Assembly: GCA_031270755.1 (NCBI GenBank)
Contig: JAISWV010000321.1
Span: 1 to 17,062, forward strand
Direction of reading: 5' to 3'
Source of the DNA: Synergistaceae bacterium
GTDB taxonomy: Bacteria; Synergistota; Synergistia; Synergistales; Aminobacteriaceae
Length of the DNA stretch: 17,062 nucleotides
The notes beneath the pieces are model-generated. The model was not told the origin of the DNA and did no database searches. It was given only the letters and a program-made list of their open reading frames with translations. The stretch's first letter is position 1. Each line of letters opens with the position of its first letter. Shown here in pieces: positions 2,209 to 10,174 of this stretch. Made by a program: the position numbers and the translations under genes.

Positions 2209-3123
2209 TTACGCCTTTTCGCCCAGCAGGTATTTTTTCGCGTAGCGCTTGGGGGAGATGCCCGTCAAGGTCCCGAAGGTTCGGATAAAATGCGCGTTGT
2301 TCCGAAATCCGACCCTCTCCCCCACCTCCTGAACGCGCAACCCCTGGCGCAGCAGCTCCCTGGCCTTCAAGACACGACAGTGGATGATGTACTCCATCAC
2401 GCTGAACCCCGTGGCGGACTTGAAAATGTGACACATATGGTACTTGTCGATGAAAAAACGGGCGGACAGGCCGTCCAGCGACAGAGGTTCGGCGATGTTG
2501 GCCGGGATGTATTTGATCAAGGGTTCGATCCTCGCGAAGTCGAGATTCGAGCTTTTGTTTTTGCCGCCCGTTTCCGCGTTCTCGAACAACGAGAACGTCG
2601 CGATCAAAAACTCCAACAGCCGGGCGGTTCTCTTGATATCGCTGCAGAAAGAGGAACCGCAGGGCCCTTCCAAATCTCGAAACATTTTCGTCAGGGCGTG
2701 GGTCTGGCCCTCGTCCAGCTGTTTGCTGCGCCCCGACGCTTTTCGAGTGAACGCGACGAGGTCGCTTTGTTGGGTGGAAAACTCCTGCAGGGTCTCCGGG
2801 GAGATGTGCAGAACGTATCTCGTGTACGGGTCGTCCACAACGCTCTTGTGCAAAGTCGCTTCTCTGAAGAGGAACAGAGCGCCCCGCCGCAAAGGGTAAA
2901 ATTCGTCTTCGACGAAGAAACTTCCGCTGCCCGACAAGGACAACAATATTTCCACATCTTCGTGAAAATGAAGACGGTGCATCTGCCACATGTCGTCCCT
3001 GTTGAAGCGAAGCTGATATTTAGGTTGAAGCAAACGTATCCGCCCCCCTTCAGTAAAACACGCAAGACGCGTTTCGTGGTCTACTATAGCGTACTTGTGC
3101 AAGATATGCAAACATATTGCCAA
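2209..3123 (-). CDS. AraC-family transcriptional regulator with N-terminal cupin domain
   Basis: The 304-residue frame has an N-terminal cupin-type sensing domain (residues about 50-115, with MHRLHFHEDVEILL and RRGALFLFREATLHKSV). At the C-terminus is a double helix-turn-helix AraC domain (residues about 205-300, with EPLSLDGLSARFFIDKYHMC and the second-helix signature VGFRNNAHFIRTFGTLTGIS followed by PKRY). The frame opens with TTG at 3123, which has no convincing ribosome site. A TTG at 3031-3033, preceded by a G-rich AAGGGGGG run 8 bases upstream, would give a 274-residue protein that still contains both domains, so the start is uncertain. It is transcribed divergently from gctA and is the natural candidate to control the hydroxyglutarate cluster. 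The ligand cannot be read from sequence; a C5 acid or its CoA-pathway intermediate is an inference from context. Confidence 0.87.
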   Translation of the reverse strand: MAICLHILHKYAIVDHETRLACFTEGGRIRLLQPKYQLRFNRDDMWQMHRLHFHEDVEILLSLSGSGSFFVEDEFYPLRRGALFLFREATLHKSVVDDPYTRYVLHISPETLQEFSTQQSDLVAFTRKASGRSKQLDEGQTHALTKMFRDLEGPCGSSFCSDIKRTARLLEFLIATFSLFENAETGGKNKSSNLDFARIEPLIKYIPANIAEPLSLDGLSARFFIDKYHMCHIFKSATGFSVMEYIIHCRVLKARELLRQGLRVQEVGERVGFRNNAHFIRTFGTLTGISPKRYAKKYLLGEKA

Positions 3124-3281
3124 ATTATTGAGATAATCATACTTTATTTTTGTGATATCTTATGTTGTCCTAGGATCGATTTGTTGTTGCGTGCCGTCAA
3201 GGGTCTCGGGAGAGAGTGGCGGAGACTGTATGGTTTGTGACCTCTGTCCCGATGAGCTTCAATTCAAAAGGAGGTTGTGTA
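3124..3281. promoter_or_regulatory. Divergent control region between the AraC-type regulator and gctA
   Basis: This is about 158 bases, AT-rich at the regulator side. It holds the inverted repeat ATTAT-TGAG-ATAAT (3125-3137) and, just to its left, the loose direct pair TGCAAA / TGCCAAA (3108-3124). A possible plus-strand promoter is TTGCCA (3117-3122) with TACTTT (3140-3145) at 17 bases. On the minus strand TATGAT (3136-3141) is a fair -10 with a poor -35, as expected for an activator-dependent promoter. The downstream end carries the AAGGAGG ribosome site of gctA. The assignments are motif-based only. Confidence 0.4.
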
Positions 3282-4235
3282 ATGAGCAAAGTTTATACTC
3301 TCCACGACGCTGTCGAGAAGTTCGTGCATGATGGCGACCACATCGCGTTTGGCGGTTTTACCACGAACCGGAAGCCCTACGCGGCGGTTTATGAAATTCT
3401 TCGTCAGGGCCGGAAGGATTTCATAGCCGAGGGAGGGCCGGCCGGAGGCGATTGGGACATGTTGATCGGCGCGGGACGGGTCAAGGCTTTCATCAACTGT
3501 TATACGGCGAACTCCGGTTTTTCCAACGTCAGCCGCCGGTACAAAAACGCCATCGAGAAGGGCACAATATTGTTCGAGGACTATTCCCAGGACGCCCTGA
3601 TTCTCATGTTCGCCGGCGCGGCGCTTGGTCTTCCTTACGTTCCGGTCCGTCTCATGCTGGGTTCGGGCCTGGTCGACAAATGGGGGATCAGCAAGGAAGA
3701 AAGGCAAAAAATCGACAAGCTGCCAAACGAAAAATTCGTCATTCAGGACGACCCGTTCAATCCCGGCCAGAAACTGGTGCTTTTGCCGACGCCCAAGCTG
3801 GATACGGCCGTCATTCACGTGCAGAAGGCATCCCCGGACGGAACCTGCCGTATCGAGGGCGACGAGTTCCACGACGTGGATATCGCCATTGCCTCCAAAC
3901 ACTGCATCGTCACCTGCGAAGAACTCCTCGGCAACGAAGAGATCAAGCGAGACCCCAACCTGAACAAGATTCCCGGCTTCGTCGTGGACGCCGTCGTCCA
4001 CGCTCCCCACGGCGCGCACCCGTCCCAGTGCTACAACTACTACGACTACGACGCCCAAATGCTGAGAGACTACGACGCGGCCAGCAAGACCGCCGAGGAC
4101 TTCGAGAAGTTCATCACCACGTGGGGTTACGAGCCCAAGACCCATGAGGAATATCTCAACAAGCTTGGAGCGGAGCGCCTGATCAAAACGAGGGTCGTAC
4201 CGGGTCTGGGGTACGTGCCCAGGGTAAAAAAGTAA
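3282..4235 (+). CDS. gctA: Glutaconate CoA-transferase subunit A
   Basis: 317 residues, the usual length. The sequence follows Acidaminococcus fermentans GctA closely from memory (MSKVYTLHDAVEKFVHDGDH, GGFTTNRKPYAAVYEILRQG, GGDWDMLIGAGRVKAFINCY, SPDGTCRIEGDEFHDVDIA, AHPSQCYNYYDYD, RVVPGLGYVP). With GctB it forms the enzyme that moves CoA from acetyl-CoA or glutaconyl-CoA onto (R)-2-hydroxyglutarate, the activation step of cytoplasmic glutamate fermentation. I chose ATG 3282 because AAGGAGG lies 8 bases upstream and it gives the family N-terminus. An in-frame ATG at 3216 would add 22 unrelated residues and lacks such a site. It is the first gene of the cluster, with 16 bases to gctB. Confidence 0.95.
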   Translation: MSKVYTLHDAVEKFVHDGDHIAFGGFTTNRKPYAAVYEILRQGRKDFIAEGGPAGGDWDMLIGAGRVKAFINCYTANSGFSNVSRRYKNAIEKGTILFEDYSQDALILMFAGAALGLPYVPVRLMLGSGLVDKWGISKEERQKIDKLPNEKFVIQDDPFNPGQKLVLLPTPKLDTAVIHVQKASPDGTCRIEGDEFHDVDIAIASKHCIVTCEELLGNEEIKRDPNLNKIPGFVVDAVVHAPHGAHPSQCYNYYDYDAQMLRDYDAASKTAEDFEKFITTWGYEPKTHEEYLNKLGAERLIKTRVVPGLGYVPRVKK

Positions 4236-4251: not shown

Positions 4252-5052
4252 ATGGCGGACTCTACTAATTACACCAATTACACCAACCGTGAAATGCAGG
4301 CCGTCTCCATCGCGAGGTCGGTCAAGAACGGACAAATCGCCATCGTGGGGACCGGGTTGCCGCTTATCGGCGCGACTCTGGCCAAAAAGTGCTTTGCCCC
4401 GGACTGCATCCTGATCGTGGAAAGCGGCCTCATGGACTGCGACCCCATCGAAGTTCCCACCAGCGTCGGAGATTGCCGTTTCATGGCGCACTGCGCGGTG
4501 CAGTGGCCCAACGCCAGGTACGTGGGTTTTCAGGCCAACGAGTGGCAGCACGGCGGCGACCGGATGATCGCCTTCATCGGAGGCGCGCAGATCGATCCTT
4601 ACGGCAACGTGAACTCCACCAGCATCGGCGACTATCACCACCCCAAATCGCGCTTCACCGGAAGCGGAGGAGCCAACGGGATCTGCACCTTCGTCAACAC
4701 GATCATCATGATGCAGCACGAGGCGCGCCGTTTCATCGACAAGGTCGATTACGTCACCAGCCCCGGCTGGATCGACGGCCCCGGCGGGCGGGAAAAAGTC
4801 GGCCTTCCCGGCGACCGCGGTCCGATGATGGTGGTGACCGACAGGGGAATCCTGAAGTTCGACGAAAAGACGAAACGCATGTACCTTGCGGGATACTACG
4901 AAACCTCCTCCGTTCAGGATATCGTCGAGAACACCGGCTTTGAGATCGACGTCTCCCGCGCCGAAAAAATCGCGCCTCCGGAGCCGGAGATCATCCGTAT
5001 AATCCGAGAGGAAATCGACCCGGGTCAAGCGTTCATAAAAATACCGGCCTGA
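4252..5052 (+). CDS. gctB: Glutaconate CoA-transferase subunit B (catalytic glutamate subunit)
   Basis: 266 residues. It matches A. fermentans GctB throughout (NREMQAVSIARSVKNGQIAI, GTGLPLIGATLAKK, FIGGAQIDPYGNVNSTSIGD, YVTSPGWIDGPGGREK, REEIDPGQAFIKIPA). The catalytic glutamate that carries the CoA thioester is E57 in VESGLMDC. It corresponds to Glu54 of the A. fermentans beta chain, with the offset of three explained by an extra NYT triplet near the N-terminus. A ribosome site GGGAGGGG lies about 10 bases before ATG 4252, and the gene sits 16 bases after gctA, so the two subunits are probably co-translated in equal amounts. All key motifs are intact. Confidence 0.95.
   Translation: MADSTNYTNYTNREMQAVSIARSVKNGQIAIVGTGLPLIGATLAKKCFAPDCILIVESGLMDCDPIEVPTSVGDCRFMAHCAVQWPNARYVGFQANEWQHGGDRMIAFIGGAQIDPYGNVNSTSIGDYHHPKSRFTGSGGANGICTFVNTIIMMQHEARRFIDKVDYVTSPGWIDGPGGREKVGLPGDRGPMMVVTDRGILKFDEKTKRMYLAGYYETSSVQDIVENTGFEIDVSRAEKIAPPEPEIIRIIREEIDPGQAFIKIPA
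4267..4284. repeat. 9-bp perfect tandem duplication inside gctB
   Basis: AATTACACC is present twice in a row and gives the repeated NYT-NYT near the N-terminus. It accounts for the three-residue shift of the catalytic glutamate relative to the A. fermentans protein. Confidence 0.85.
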
Positions 5053-5149: not shown

Positions 5150-6907
5150 ATGTCAGAGTACTCCATGCCGATCTATTTCCAAAATATGCCGACGGTCGGC
5201 AGGCCTTTGGCTTCGGTAAATACGGAAAACGAGACCGCTTTGAGAAAAGTGGAACAGGAAATTCGCGAAATGGCGGCCAAAATGCAGGCCGAAGGGCGTT
5301 CCGACGAATCTTTGAACGAATCCGGGCAGATGACGGCCATGCAGCGGATTCGGGCCCTGGTCGAAGAGGGTACCTGGTGCCCGTTGAACAGCCTGTTCAA
5401 CCCGGACGACAACCCGGAGGGCTCCACCGCCATTATCAAAGGGCTGGGACGGATCAGCGGAAGGTGGGCGGTGGTGGTCGCGTCGGACAACAAGAAGCTG
5501 GCGGGCGCTTGGGTGCCCGGGCAGGCGGAAAACCTGATCCGCGCTTCCGACACGGCGAAGATGCTGCGCATTCCTCTGGTTTACGTCCTCAACTGCAGCG
5601 GCGTCAAATTGAGCGCTCAAGAGAAAGTTTACCCCAACCGACGGGGCGGCGGAACGCCCTTTTTCCGCAACGCAGAGCTGGAGCAGCTGGGTATTCCCGT
5701 CATCGTCGGCATTTACGGCACCAATCCGGCAGGCGGCGGCTATCACAGCATCAGCCCCACCATTTTGCTGGCCCACAGCAAGGCGAACATGGCGGTAGGC
5801 GGAGCCGGCATCCTGGGCGGAATGAACCCCAAGGGTTACGTGGACCTGGAGGGTGCTCACCAATTGATCGAACTGGAAGAAAATTTCAAGGCGGATCCCC
5901 CCGGGACGGTGGCCGTCCACTTCAACGAGACGGGGTTTTTCCGGGAGGTCTACACGGAAGAGCTGGGCGTGCTGGAGGCGATCAAGAAATACATGTGCCA
6001 GATCCCCGCCTACGACCTGGAATTTTTCCGCGTCGATGAGCCCAGGGAACCTCTTTACGACGTCAACGACCTCTACAGCATCGTGCCGCTGAACCCCAAG
6101 CGGGGTTACAACATTTACGAGGTCCTGGGACGCATCTTCGATGGCAGCGAGATCCTGGAGTACAAGCGGGGGTACGGTCCCGAAATGGTGACGGGGCTGG
6201 TGAAGGCGGACGGGCTTCTGCTGGGGGTTGTGGCCAACGCCCAGGGGATTCTCGTCAACTATCCCGAGTACCGGCAGAACGCCACCGGCATAGGGGGCAA
6301 GCTATACCGTCAGGGCCTGGTCAAGATGAACGAGTTCGTCACCCTTTGCGGAAGAGACCGTATACCCATCGTCTGGATTCAGGACACCACGGGCATCGAC
6401 GTGGGCGACGAGGCGGAGCGGGCGGAGCTGCTGGGGCTGGGGCAGTCTTTGATTTACTCTATCGAGACCTCCGGCGTGCCGCAGATCGAGATCACTCTGC
6501 GAAAAGGCACCGCGGCGGCCCACTACGTTTTGGGAGGACCTCAGGGCAACAACAACAACGCCTTCTCCCTGGGAACGGCCACCACCGAGATCAACGTCAT
6601 GAACGGCGAGACCGCGGCCGCGGCCATGTATTCCAGGCGACTGGCGAAAGACCAAAAAGCGGGCAAGGACCTTCAGCCGATCATCGACAAGATGAACCAG
6701 TTGATCGAAGAGTACACGGAAAAAGCGAGACCGGACTTCTGCGCAAAGATGGGGATGGTGGACGAGGTGGCGGAGTTCCCGGCCTTGCGCTCTTATGTCA
6801 AGGCGTTCGCCTGCTCCGTGTACCAAAATCCAAAGTCCATCTGCCCGTTCCATCAAATGCTGCTGCCGCGTTCGCTCCGGGAGTACGACACCTGGAGAAA
6901 GCCGTAA
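5150..6907 (+). CDS. gcdA: Glutaconyl-CoA decarboxylase alpha subunit (carboxyltransferase)
   Basis: 585 residues against 587 for A. fermentans GcdA, with near-continuous similarity (YSMPIYFQNMPTVGRPL, WVPGQAENLIRASDTAK, KVYPNRRGGGTPFFRNAEL, GTNPAGGGYHSISPT, GGAGILGGMNPKGYVDLE, IVWIQDTTGIDVGDEAE, ICPFHQMLLPRSLREYDT). It is a tandem carboxyltransferase of the acetyl-CoA carboxylase beta/alpha type (two crotonase-fold halves, about residues 40-300 and 320-570). It removes CO2 from glutaconyl-CoA and passes it to biotin, giving crotonyl-CoA. The complete enzyme is a membrane sodium pump that needs GcdB (beta), a biotin carrier (gamma) and GcdD (delta); none is in this window, so they must lie elsewhere. 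AGAAAGGTGG lies 7 bases before the ATG. Confidence 0.95.
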   Translation: MSEYSMPIYFQNMPTVGRPLASVNTENETALRKVEQEIREMAAKMQAEGRSDESLNESGQMTAMQRIRALVEEGTWCPLNSLFNPDDNPEGSTAIIKGLGRISGRWAVVVASDNKKLAGAWVPGQAENLIRASDTAKMLRIPLVYVLNCSGVKLSAQEKVYPNRRGGGTPFFRNAELEQLGIPVIVGIYGTNPAGGGYHSISPTILLAHSKANMAVGGAGILGGMNPKGYVDLEGAHQLIELEENFKADPPGTVAVHFNETGFFREVYTEELGVLEAIKKYMCQIPAYDLEFFRVDEPREPLYDVNDLYSIVPLNPKRGYNIYEVLGRIFDGSEILEYKRGYGPEMVTGLVKADGLLLGVVANAQGILVNYPEYRQNATGIGGKLYRQGLVKMNEFVTLCGRDRIPIVWIQDTTGIDVGDEAERAELLGLGQSLIYSIETSGVPQIEITLRKGTAAAHYVLGGPQGNNNNAFSLGTATTEINVMNGETAAAAMYSRRLAKDQKAGKDLQPIIDKMNQLIEEYTEKARPDFCAKMGMVDEVAEFPALRSYVKAFACSVYQNPKSICPFHQMLLPRSLREYDTWRKP

Positions 6908-7761: not shown

Positions 7762-7790
7762 AATAGTGGTTTGCCTAGGAGGGGAACGCG

Positions 7791-8027
7791 ATGAGCGAAA
7801 GTAAAGAAACACAAGAAAAAAAAGAGGCAAAGGTCGTTCTGAGAGAGATCGTGGACCGGGTCTACCAAAGCGCGTGGGACGCCAAAAAACGGGGCGAGCC
7901 CGTGGGCTGGTCCTCTTCCAAATTTCCGGCGGAGATAGCGGAGGCCCTGGGGCTGGCCGTCTGCTATCCCGAAAATCAAGCGGCCGCCATCTCCGCCAAA
8001 CACGGCGGCCAGAGAATGTGCGAGTAA
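7791..8027 (+). CDS. hgdA: 2-hydroxyglutaryl-CoA dehydratase alpha subunit, N-terminal part ending at an in-frame TAA
   Basis: 78 residues behind a strong AGGAGGGG ribosome site, 30 bases after hgdC. VVLREIVDRVYQSAWDAKKR, GWSSSKFPAEIAEALGL and YPENQAAAISAKHGGQRMCE match the first ~80 residues of A. fermentans HgdA (which reads ...GWSSSKFPCELAESFGL... then MCQAAEDIGYDNDICGY). The next codon is TAA, and the same frame then continues at once with AESMGYANDICGY, so this is the front of one gene and not a separate protein. The conserved MC pair (C77) is upstream of the stop. On its own this fragment cannot be active. See the junction entry for the possible explanations. Confidence 0.85.
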   Translation: MSESKETQEKKEAKVVLREIVDRVYQSAWDAKKRGEPVGWSSSKFPAEIAEALGLAVCYPENQAAAISAKHGGQRMCE

Positions 8028-8036
8028 GCCGAGTCC
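8025..8036 (+). other. In-frame TAA codon splitting hgdA, with the first downstream ATG 9 bases later
   Basis: The reading is TGC GAG TAA GCC GAG TCC ATG GGG TAC. The frame before and after is the same, and both sides align without loss to HgdA proteins, so only one codon is affected (aligned with an alanine in A. fermentans from memory). There is no shift. UAA is not a selenocysteine or pyrrolysine codon. Possible explanations are a point mutation, a base-calling or assembly error, stop readthrough, or coupled re-initiation at ATG 8037. Upstream of that ATG I see no AGGAGG-like site. Confidence 0.85.
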
Positions 8037-9032
8037 ATGGGGTACGCCAACGACATCTGCGGCTACACCCGGATCAGCCTGGCCTACGCGGCGGGGGCCG
8101 AGTGCGGGGAAAGGCCGATGCCGCAGCCGGATTTTTTGTTGTGCTGCAACAACATTTGTAACTGCATGACCAAGTGGTACGAAAATATCGCGCGTATGCA
8201 CAACATCCCTTTGATTATGATCGACGTCCCCTACAACAACACCACCGAGGTCAGCGAGGAAACGGTGGCCTACCTCAAGGGGCAGTTCCAGGACGCCATC
8301 CAGCGGCTGGAAAAGATCAGTGGCCGCAAATGGGACGAAAAGCGCTTCGAGGAGGTTTGTCAGAACTCGAACCGCACCGCGAAAGCGTGGCTGAAGGCGT
8401 GTTCTTACTGTCAGTACCTCCCGTCGCCCTTGAGCGGGTTCGACCTGTTCAACCACATGGCCGACGTGGTCACGGCGCGCAGCAAGCCGGAGACCGCCGC
8501 CGCCTTCGAGCTGCTGGCCGAGGAATACGAGCAGGCGGTGAAGGACGGGACCTCCACCCTGCCCTATGAGGAAAAGTACCGCATCATGTTCGAGGGAATC
8601 CCCTGCTGGCCGGAACTGCGCGCTCTCTTCAAGCCGCTGAAGGCGAAGGGCATCAACACCACGGCCGTGGTCTACGCTCCGGCCTTCGGTTTCGTGTACG
8701 ACAACCTGGACGAGATGATGCGCGCTTACTGCAAAGCGCCCAACTCGGTCTGCATCGAGACCGGTGTGGACTGGCGCGAGGGCATCTGCCGCGAGAACAA
8801 AGTGGACGGCGTTCTGGTCCACTACAACCGGAGCTGCAAGCCCTGGAGCGGCTACATGCCGGAGATGGAGCGGCGCTTCCGCAAAGACCTGGGCGTACCT
8901 GTGGTGGGGTTCGACGGCGACCAGGCGGATCCACGGAATTTCTCCGAGGCGCAGTACGCGACCCGCGTGGAAGGTCTTTTCGAGCTGATGGAAGCGAATA
9001 AAATGGAAGCGAACAAATCGGGGGGGAAATGA
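8037..9032 (+). CDS. hgdA: 2-hydroxyglutaryl-CoA dehydratase alpha subunit, main part
   Basis: 331 residues from the first ATG after the stop; the same frame actually continues from 8028. Strong family motifs follow: GYANDICGYTRISLAYAAG, FLLCCNNICNCMTKWYENIA, NRTAKAWLKACSYCQYLP, GFDLFNHMADVVTARSK, HRIMFEGIPCWP-like RIMFEGIPCWPELRALFKPL, VVYAPAFGFVYDNLDEMMRA, GVLVHYNRSCKPWSGYMPEM and GFDGDQADPRNFSEAQYATR. With HgdB it binds a [4Fe-4S] cluster and carries out reversible radical dehydration of (R)-2-hydroxyglutaryl-CoA to glutaconyl-CoA. It lacks the ~60-residue insertion near the N-terminus that the A. fermentans chain carries. The C-terminus has a duplicated MEANK. The gene ends in a 4-base ATGA overlap with the first possible hgdB start. 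Confidence 0.9.
   Translation: MGYANDICGYTRISLAYAAGAECGERPMPQPDFLLCCNNICNCMTKWYENIARMHNIPLIMIDVPYNNTTEVSEETVAYLKGQFQDAIQRLEKISGRKWDEKRFEEVCQNSNRTAKAWLKACSYCQYLPSPLSGFDLFNHMADVVTARSKPETAAAFELLAEEYEQAVKDGTSTLPYEEKYRIMFEGIPCWPELRALFKPLKAKGINTTAVVYAPAFGFVYDNLDEMMRAYCKAPNSVCIETGVDWREGICRENKVDGVLVHYNRSCKPWSGYMPEMERRFRKDLGVPVVGFDGDQADPRNFSEAQYATRVEGLFELMEANKMEANKSGGK
8988..9017. repeat. 15-bp tandem duplication at the 3' end of hgdA
   Basis: ATGGAAGCGAATAAA and ATGGAAGCGAACAAA stand side by side and differ at one base. They encode MEANK-MEANK. The aligned A. fermentans protein ends with a single MEAN. Confidence 0.85.
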
Positions 9033-9034
9033 CG

Positions 9035-10174
9035 ATGAGCACCATCGGAGAGCTGTTGAATCAATTCGACATGATCGCTTCCAATCCTAAAGCCCAGTTG
9101 GAAAAATACATCGCCGGCGGAAAACAGGCCATCGGCTGCTTCCCGTATTACGTGCCGGAGGAGCTGGTGCGGGCTGCCGACATGGTGCCCTTCGGCGTCT
9201 GGGGAGCGGAGGGGACCATCAACTCGGCAAAGAAGTACTTTGCCCCCTTCTACTGCACCATCGCCCAGATGGGGCTGGAACTGGCCCTGAACGGAAAACT
9301 GGACAAGCTTTCGGGCGTGATCATGCCGTCCATATGCGACACCCTGCGCCCTCTGACCCAGAACTTCCGCTCGGCAATCCCCCAGCTTCCCTTCATTTTC
9401 CTGGCGCATCCCCAAAACAGACGAGCCCCCTACGGAGTGGAGTACACGAAGAGCCAGTACGGCAGCGTGAAACAGAAGCTGGAAGCCATTGCCGGCAAAG
9501 CCATTACCGACAGCGCTTTGAAAGACGCCATCCGCGTTTACAACGAGAGCCGCGCCGCCCGGAGGAAATTCGTCAAACTCGCGGGGCAGCATCCCGAGTC
9601 GGTGTCCCCCATTCATCGAAGCGCCGTTCTGAAGAGCGCGTACTTCATGGACAAGGCGGAACACACGGCGCTCTTGACCGAACTCAACTCTCAGCTGGAG
9701 GCTTTGCCAAAGTCCGATTGGAAGGGCTCCAAGATCCTCCTCTCGGGGATACTCGCCGACAGCAAGAACCTGCTGCAAATTCTCGCCGACCACAACATGG
9801 CGGTGGTGGCCGACGACGTGGCCCAGCAGTCCCGCGCTTTCCGCCTGGACGTGCCGGAGGCGGACGACCCCATGACGGCCTTGGCGCTGCAGTTTGCCGG
9901 ACAGGACTACGACGTCCTCCTGTACGACCCGGAGCTGAACAAGCGCCCGGAGCACGTGGTGAATTTGACCCGCGAAAACGGCGCTCAAGGAGTCGTCATC
10001 CTGATGATGCAGTTTTGCGATCCGGAGGAGATGGAATACCCCTCGCTGAAACAAGCTCTGGACAAGGCGGATATCCCCTCCGTGTCCATCGGTTTCGACC
10101 AGCAGATGCGGGACTTCGGTCAGGCGCGAACGCAGCTTCAGGCTTTCGCGGATGTTTTGAGTTCCAAACGTTAA
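9035..10174 (+). CDS. hgdB: 2-hydroxyglutaryl-CoA dehydratase beta subunit
   Basis: 379 residues from ATG 9035 (MSTIGELL), which sits 8 bases after GGGGGG. ATG 9029 overlaps the hgdA stop but lies only 2 bases from that site, so I prefer the second start. Family motifs are intact: AIGCFPYYVPEELVRAADMV, GVWGAEGTI, YCTIAQMGLELAL, ICDTLRPLTQNF, YDVLLYDPELNKRPEH and MMQFCDPEEMEYPSL. The cysteines in GCFPYYVPEE (C35), ICDTLRP (C101) and MMQFCDPEEMEYP are the expected ligands or near-ligands of the beta-subunit cluster in this enzyme class. One cysteine of the A. fermentans sequence (KEYCASF) is phenylalanine here (KKYFAPF). It pairs with HgdA and is reduced by HgdC. A 142-base spacer follows before the thiolase gene. 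Confidence 0.93.
   Translation: MSTIGELLNQFDMIASNPKAQLEKYIAGGKQAIGCFPYYVPEELVRAADMVPFGVWGAEGTINSAKKYFAPFYCTIAQMGLELALNGKLDKLSGVIMPSICDTLRPLTQNFRSAIPQLPFIFLAHPQNRRAPYGVEYTKSQYGSVKQKLEAIAGKAITDSALKDAIRVYNESRAARRKFVKLAGQHPESVSPIHRSAVLKSAYFMDKAEHTALLTELNSQLEALPKSDWKGSKILLSGILADSKNLLQILADHNMAVVADDVAQQSRAFRLDVPEADDPMTALALQFAGQDYDVLLYDPELNKRPEHVVNLTRENGAQGVVILMMQFCDPEEMEYPSLKQALDKADIPSVSIGFDQQMRDFGQARTQLQAFADVLSSKR

Follow-up and report, generated by a model that had tools for sequence, protein, structure and literature searches.

An uncultured Synergistaceae bacterium with an in-frame TAA in its 2-hydroxyacyl-CoA dehydratase alpha-subunit gene: probably a recent nonsense change or a base error

The locus and its gene neighbourhood

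The stretch of DNA analysed here (the window, 17,062 bases) is one whole contig (C2) of a metagenome-assembled genome (MAG), a fragmented assembly of 2.68 Mb in 446 contigs that is rated 86.7% complete. Its nearest named relatives are MAGs labelled Synergistaceae (L023-L026), with 94-95% protein identity over the C-terminal piece of the gene discussed below; sample codes of such kind presumably stand for termite guts. The contig encodes CoA-transferase subunits, a decarboxylase alpha subunit, an acyl-CoA dehydratase activase and two dehydratase subunits, together with a thiolase, a 3-hydroxyacyl-CoA dehydrogenase, a TAXI/DctM transporter pair and a 2-hydroxyacid dehydrogenase. The features relevant to this work are the following:

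3282..4235, + strand: gctA-like CoA-transferase subunit, intact, ending in TAA (ATG 3282 taken as start)
4252..5052, + strand: gctB-like CoA-transferase subunit, intact
5150..6907, + strand: gcdA-like carboxyltransferase alpha subunit, intact, ending in TAA
6961..7761, + strand: hgdC-like dehydratase activase, intact (TIGR00241, 254 bits, cut-off 125.4)
7777..7784, + strand: AGGAGGGG, judged by eye to be a Shine-Dalgarno-like motif preceding the normal start ATG 7791
7791..8024, + strand: first 78 codons of the dehydratase alpha-subunit gene (N-terminal piece), holding the GWSSSKFP and YPENQ stretches
8025..8027, + strand: in-frame TAA, a Tyr (2) or His (3) codon in five close relatives
8028..9032, + strand: in-frame remainder of the alpha-subunit gene, containing Cys90, Cys123 and Cys349 (numbered as if read through); stop TGA
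8037..8039, + strand: ATG proposed as restart, a Leu codon in five close relatives and mostly Met/Leu in homologues
9035..10174, + strand: hgdB-like beta subunit, intact, ending in TAA (start 9029 or 9035)

The alpha gene spans positions 7791-9032, and the frame running from ATG 7791 to TGA 9030-9032 contains the TAA at 8025-8027, leaving an upstream piece of 78 aa and a downstream piece of 334 aa. The NCBIfam HadB model is covered at profile positions 1-69 by the first piece and 71-398 by the second, which indicates that only one codon is affected, with no other loss. Thus, the coordinates and frame given in the initial annotation, which described a stop dividing an otherwise intact hgdA, are correct. 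Its statement that the neighbouring pathway genes are intact also holds, since all ten other window genes compared are uninterrupted: five of the six core genes (the alpha gene being the sixth) in a comparison with five relatives, the thiolase and 3-hydroxyacyl-CoA dehydrogenase against one relative (L103), and the TAXI, DctM and 2-hydroxyacid dehydrogenase genes against another (L105). The core genes from gctA to hgdB keep the same order in all five close relatives, and all are unbroken apart from the alpha gene of this genome.

Enzyme class

The C-terminal piece matches PF06050 (HGD-D) with 243.2 bits (cut-off 28.4), the 78-aa N-terminal piece alone gives no Pfam match, and the beta-subunit frame 9029-10174 reaches 264.5 bits with the same model. 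The HGD-D domain, together with the adjoining activase and beta subunit, identifies the gene as that of a 2-hydroxyacyl-CoA dehydratase alpha subunit, akin to HgdA and HadB. The best solved relative is HadB (3o3m_A; E 3.7e-123 with the intact homologue P0001 as query), and in an alignment with this structure the cysteines of both proteins are paired in the regions of Cys90, Cys123 and Cys349, which we take to be the counterparts of the HadB cluster ligands. The gene differs from these known systems in its single in-frame TAA and in its score against the HadB equivalog NF052455, whose 750-bit whole-protein cut-off is not reached by the two pieces (80.7 and 382.2 bits). The two intact relatives tested also stay below it (486.1 and 482.1 of 750 bits), so that the alpha gene is not HadB itself. 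The gene set fits the hgdA/hgdB of the 2-hydroxyglutarate route of glutamate fermentation, and 2-hydroxyglutaryl-CoA is the predicted substrate, a prediction taken only from the gctAB-like and gcdA-like neighbours.

The site of the stop in relatives and homologues

The alpha gene was sought in 58 other genomes and a match was obtained in 18. Five close orthologues (93-95% protein identity) and two at 40% identity carry the gene without a stop, the matches in the remaining genomes being weak (21-27%). Five of the weak matches (E 6e-9 to 6e-5, 23-27% identity) seemed to contain internal TAG or TGA codons; these were discarded, since they coincide with the edges of the alignments, as at normal gene ends, and no TAA is among them. 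In the close orthologues the site is occupied by Tyr (two) or His (three), and a Tyr codon is one base away from TAA. Among the 120 homologues listed of 2311, the residue is H in 42, A in 29, Y in 16, I in 11, E in 9, Q in 6 and one of five others in 7. The initial annotation had placed the stop in a conserved stretch, which is true of its flanks, but the residue itself is variable, with 11 kinds in these 120 closest homologues.

Named loci were collected with the C-terminal piece alone as query, a search in which split genes would have shown up, and 80 of the 234 confirmed loci were kept. All 80, four of which (L023-L026) are contigs already counted among the five close relatives, are unsplit and continuous through the N-terminal motif; 76 match this motif, L045 and L065 hold a variant of it, and the frames of L025 and L026 are unbroken. 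The N-terminal piece alone, used as query, retrieved 28 short proteins, namely the window's own and 27 others, none of which ends at the TAA site, and several of the 27 look frame-shifted by eye. Two short alpha-subunit proteins, P0122 and P0124, lie on contigs of 28 and 33 kb and have a normal N terminus followed by sequence that is seemingly out of frame; other assemblies therefore seem to contain broken copies of the alpha gene as well.

As one ground against its claim, the initial annotation had named uninterrupted relatives combined with a second intact hgdA in this genome. The relatives are indeed uninterrupted, but the search for a further intact copy in the 86.7% complete assembly came up empty, the alpha query matching only itself. 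A search of this genome for HGD-D returned, besides the alpha and beta genes, a shortened one on contig C306. This last homologue (L162; positions 2880-3566, minus strand; 228 aa) covers positions 1-92 and 255-342 of the Pfam model and lacks the middle part that is present in a 393-aa relative (L123, on contig C35 of genome G001); either a deletion that kept the frame or a collapse during assembly may account for its gap.

Selection on the alpha gene

Selection was compared in the six core genes of six genomes, with G001 and G002 as congeners. The overall dN/dS of the alpha gene is 0.077 against G002 and 0.039 against G001. Downstream of the stop, the values are 0.065 (G002) and 0.040 (G001), and upstream of it 0.129 (G002, 77 codons) and 0.033 (G001, 73 codons). 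The two congeners, compared with each other, give 0.033, which is lower than the value of the alpha gene against G002 (0.077), all of them being far below 1. Private codons number 20 and private residues 6 (stop included) of 399, the corresponding figures for the congeners being 32 and 5, and 31 and 6. Taken together, these sequence comparisons show no clear relaxation of selection or decay following the stop, so that the change is either recent or an artefact. A slight relaxation could still be read from the overall dN/dS against G002, above that of the congener pair, and from the upstream value of 0.129 over 77 codons.

At the stop, a run of five codons includes three private ones. Such a cluster appeared somewhere in the gene in 402 of 2000 shuffles; it is not unusual and gives no support to a local patch of errors.

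Use of TAA in this genome

Five of the 11 window genes terminate in TAA. Of 60 gene ends aligned in the sample, 19 are TAA, 26 TGA and 15 TAG, a count that takes in the window genes and in which some ends perhaps belong to shadow frames. TAA is therefore an ordinary terminator here and has not been reassigned. For internal stops, a sample of 400 kb (66 stretches, about 15% of this genome) was compared with 1.0 Mb of relatives, yielding 88 aligned segments on 29 stretches and 26,846 codons, the window included and some shadow frames among them. The only convincing internal stop in these codons is the TAA at 8025-8027. Six stops passed the rule applied: the alpha-gene TAA, one that by its coordinates alone was judged to precede the start of hgdB, and another four, located in L226, L234 and L242, which were rejected as shadow frames or as reading past gene ends. 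A further 26 were classed by the same rule alone as lying at edges or in poorly aligned parts. The initial annotation had proposed a search for in-frame TAA in other conserved genes, and in these 88 segments, covering about 15% of the genome, no other convincing one appeared. UAA reassignment was accordingly rejected, given the share of TAA among gene ends and this lack of further internal stops in the sampled segments.

Matches to tRNA genes number 15, which is few for an assembly rated 86.7% complete.

Interpretation of the in-frame stop

The initial annotation had offered four readings of the stop and considered a recent mutation or a base error the simpler ones; the evidence supports these two. 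Efficient UAA readthrough, or a suppressor tRNA, producing a full-length subunit would agree with the purifying selection acting on the frame on either side of the stop. However, TAA ends genes normally in this genome (5 of 11 in the window and 19 of 60 sampled ends, some of these maybe in shadow frames), no suppressor anticodon occurs among the 15 tRNA matches, a plainly incomplete set, and the RNA fold around the stop is no better than that of shuffled sequences (z -0.09), which leaves readthrough programmed by RNA structure very unlikely. Furthermore, a recoded gene should conserve its stop in relatives, and here neither the five close relatives nor any of the 80 named loci has a stop at the site, the TAA being confined to one genome. 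Readthrough thus has little in its favour and is considered very improbable.

A similarly low standing is given to a two-piece alpha subunit, in which translation would terminate at the TAA and restart at ATG 8037. This ATG is the first one past the stop, in frame and, as the initial annotation said, separated from it by nine bases, and the conserved residues are kept in both pieces. The best point for a restart, which favours it mildly, is that, of the six genomes compared, this one alone has the ATG as well as the stop, the five close relatives all having Leu at the ATG position. Nevertheless, Met is common at this position in unsplit homologues (Met 76 and Leu 40 among the 120 listed; Met 23 and Leu 49 in the 74 readable named loci), and no Shine-Dalgarno-like stretch was seen by eye before ATG 8037, in contrast to the AGGAGGGG that precedes the normal start. 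All 80 kept loci are unsplit even though the C-terminal piece served as query, four of them being relatives' contigs. An intact relative modelled by AlphaFold (mean pLDDT 86.9) has the site at residue 76, inside a predicted helix (70-79), and a split would part SSSKFP (41-46) from the conserved cysteines Cys90, Cys123 and Cys349. The position of the ATG is hence confirmed, but the stop-restart subunit proposed from it has little support. Slighter still is the chance that the stop is real and tolerated, with a restart at ATG 8037 from the same lineage and chains of 78 and 331 residues that would reassociate into a working alpha subunit; such a split subunit was not seen among the relatives examined.

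The remaining readings differ in whether the base exists in the cells. With a probability of roughly 0.58, a single uncultured Synergistaceae strain has very recently acquired the TAA through a local nonsense change in its alpha-subunit gene. It agrees with this that five relatives (93-95% protein identity) have Tyr or His instead of the stop, Tyr being one base from TAA, that private residues are on a par with those of the congeners (6 against 5 and 6) and downstream dN/dS is low (0.065, 0.040), that the five relatives share the gene order from gctA to hgdB, with all these genes intact, and that none of the 27 other short N-terminal proteins ends at the site. On the other hand, a consensus base error would give the same picture in so fragmented a MAG (446 contigs, 86.7% complete), dN/dS against G002 exceeds that of the congener pair (0.077 against 0.033, with 0.129 upstream), and no second internal stop appears in the sample, so that a wider gene decay is not seen. 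A base error or strain-mixture artefact of metagenome assembly, with the gene intact in the cells, is the less favoured but serious alternative: it fits the single-base difference from a relative and a gene under purifying selection within an intact core operon, and the HGD-D gene on C306 that lacks its middle could itself be an assembly fault. Against it, one convincing internal stop in 88 segments and 26,846 codons means that the assembly is not generally error-rich, and a real allele is favoured because the sample shows no such general error problem.

According to the preferred reading, a nonsense change, the mutation would have arisen in the sampled population or be carried by part of it, and visible decay of the gene would not yet have followed. 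Translation would stop after 78 residues, and with translation ending there the allele would make no working dehydratase. We infer, then, a base that is real in the cells and an allele that is null and young. The case resembles a bacterial pseudogene formed by a single nonsense mutation, in that one codon is changed in one genome and the gene is otherwise unchanged; if the base is real there is no difference from that known situation, and no clear older decay is seen here.

Meaning of the finding

Among the literature matches listed, no paper title concerns this gene. The finding has little biological weight, since nonsense alleles of this single kind are as ordinary as single-base errors in a consensus. 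The case also serves as a caution, as an in-frame stop in one MAG needs comparison with relatives before recoding is proposed. A two-piece subunit, if it were true, would change the known picture of how the radical dehydratase family is built.
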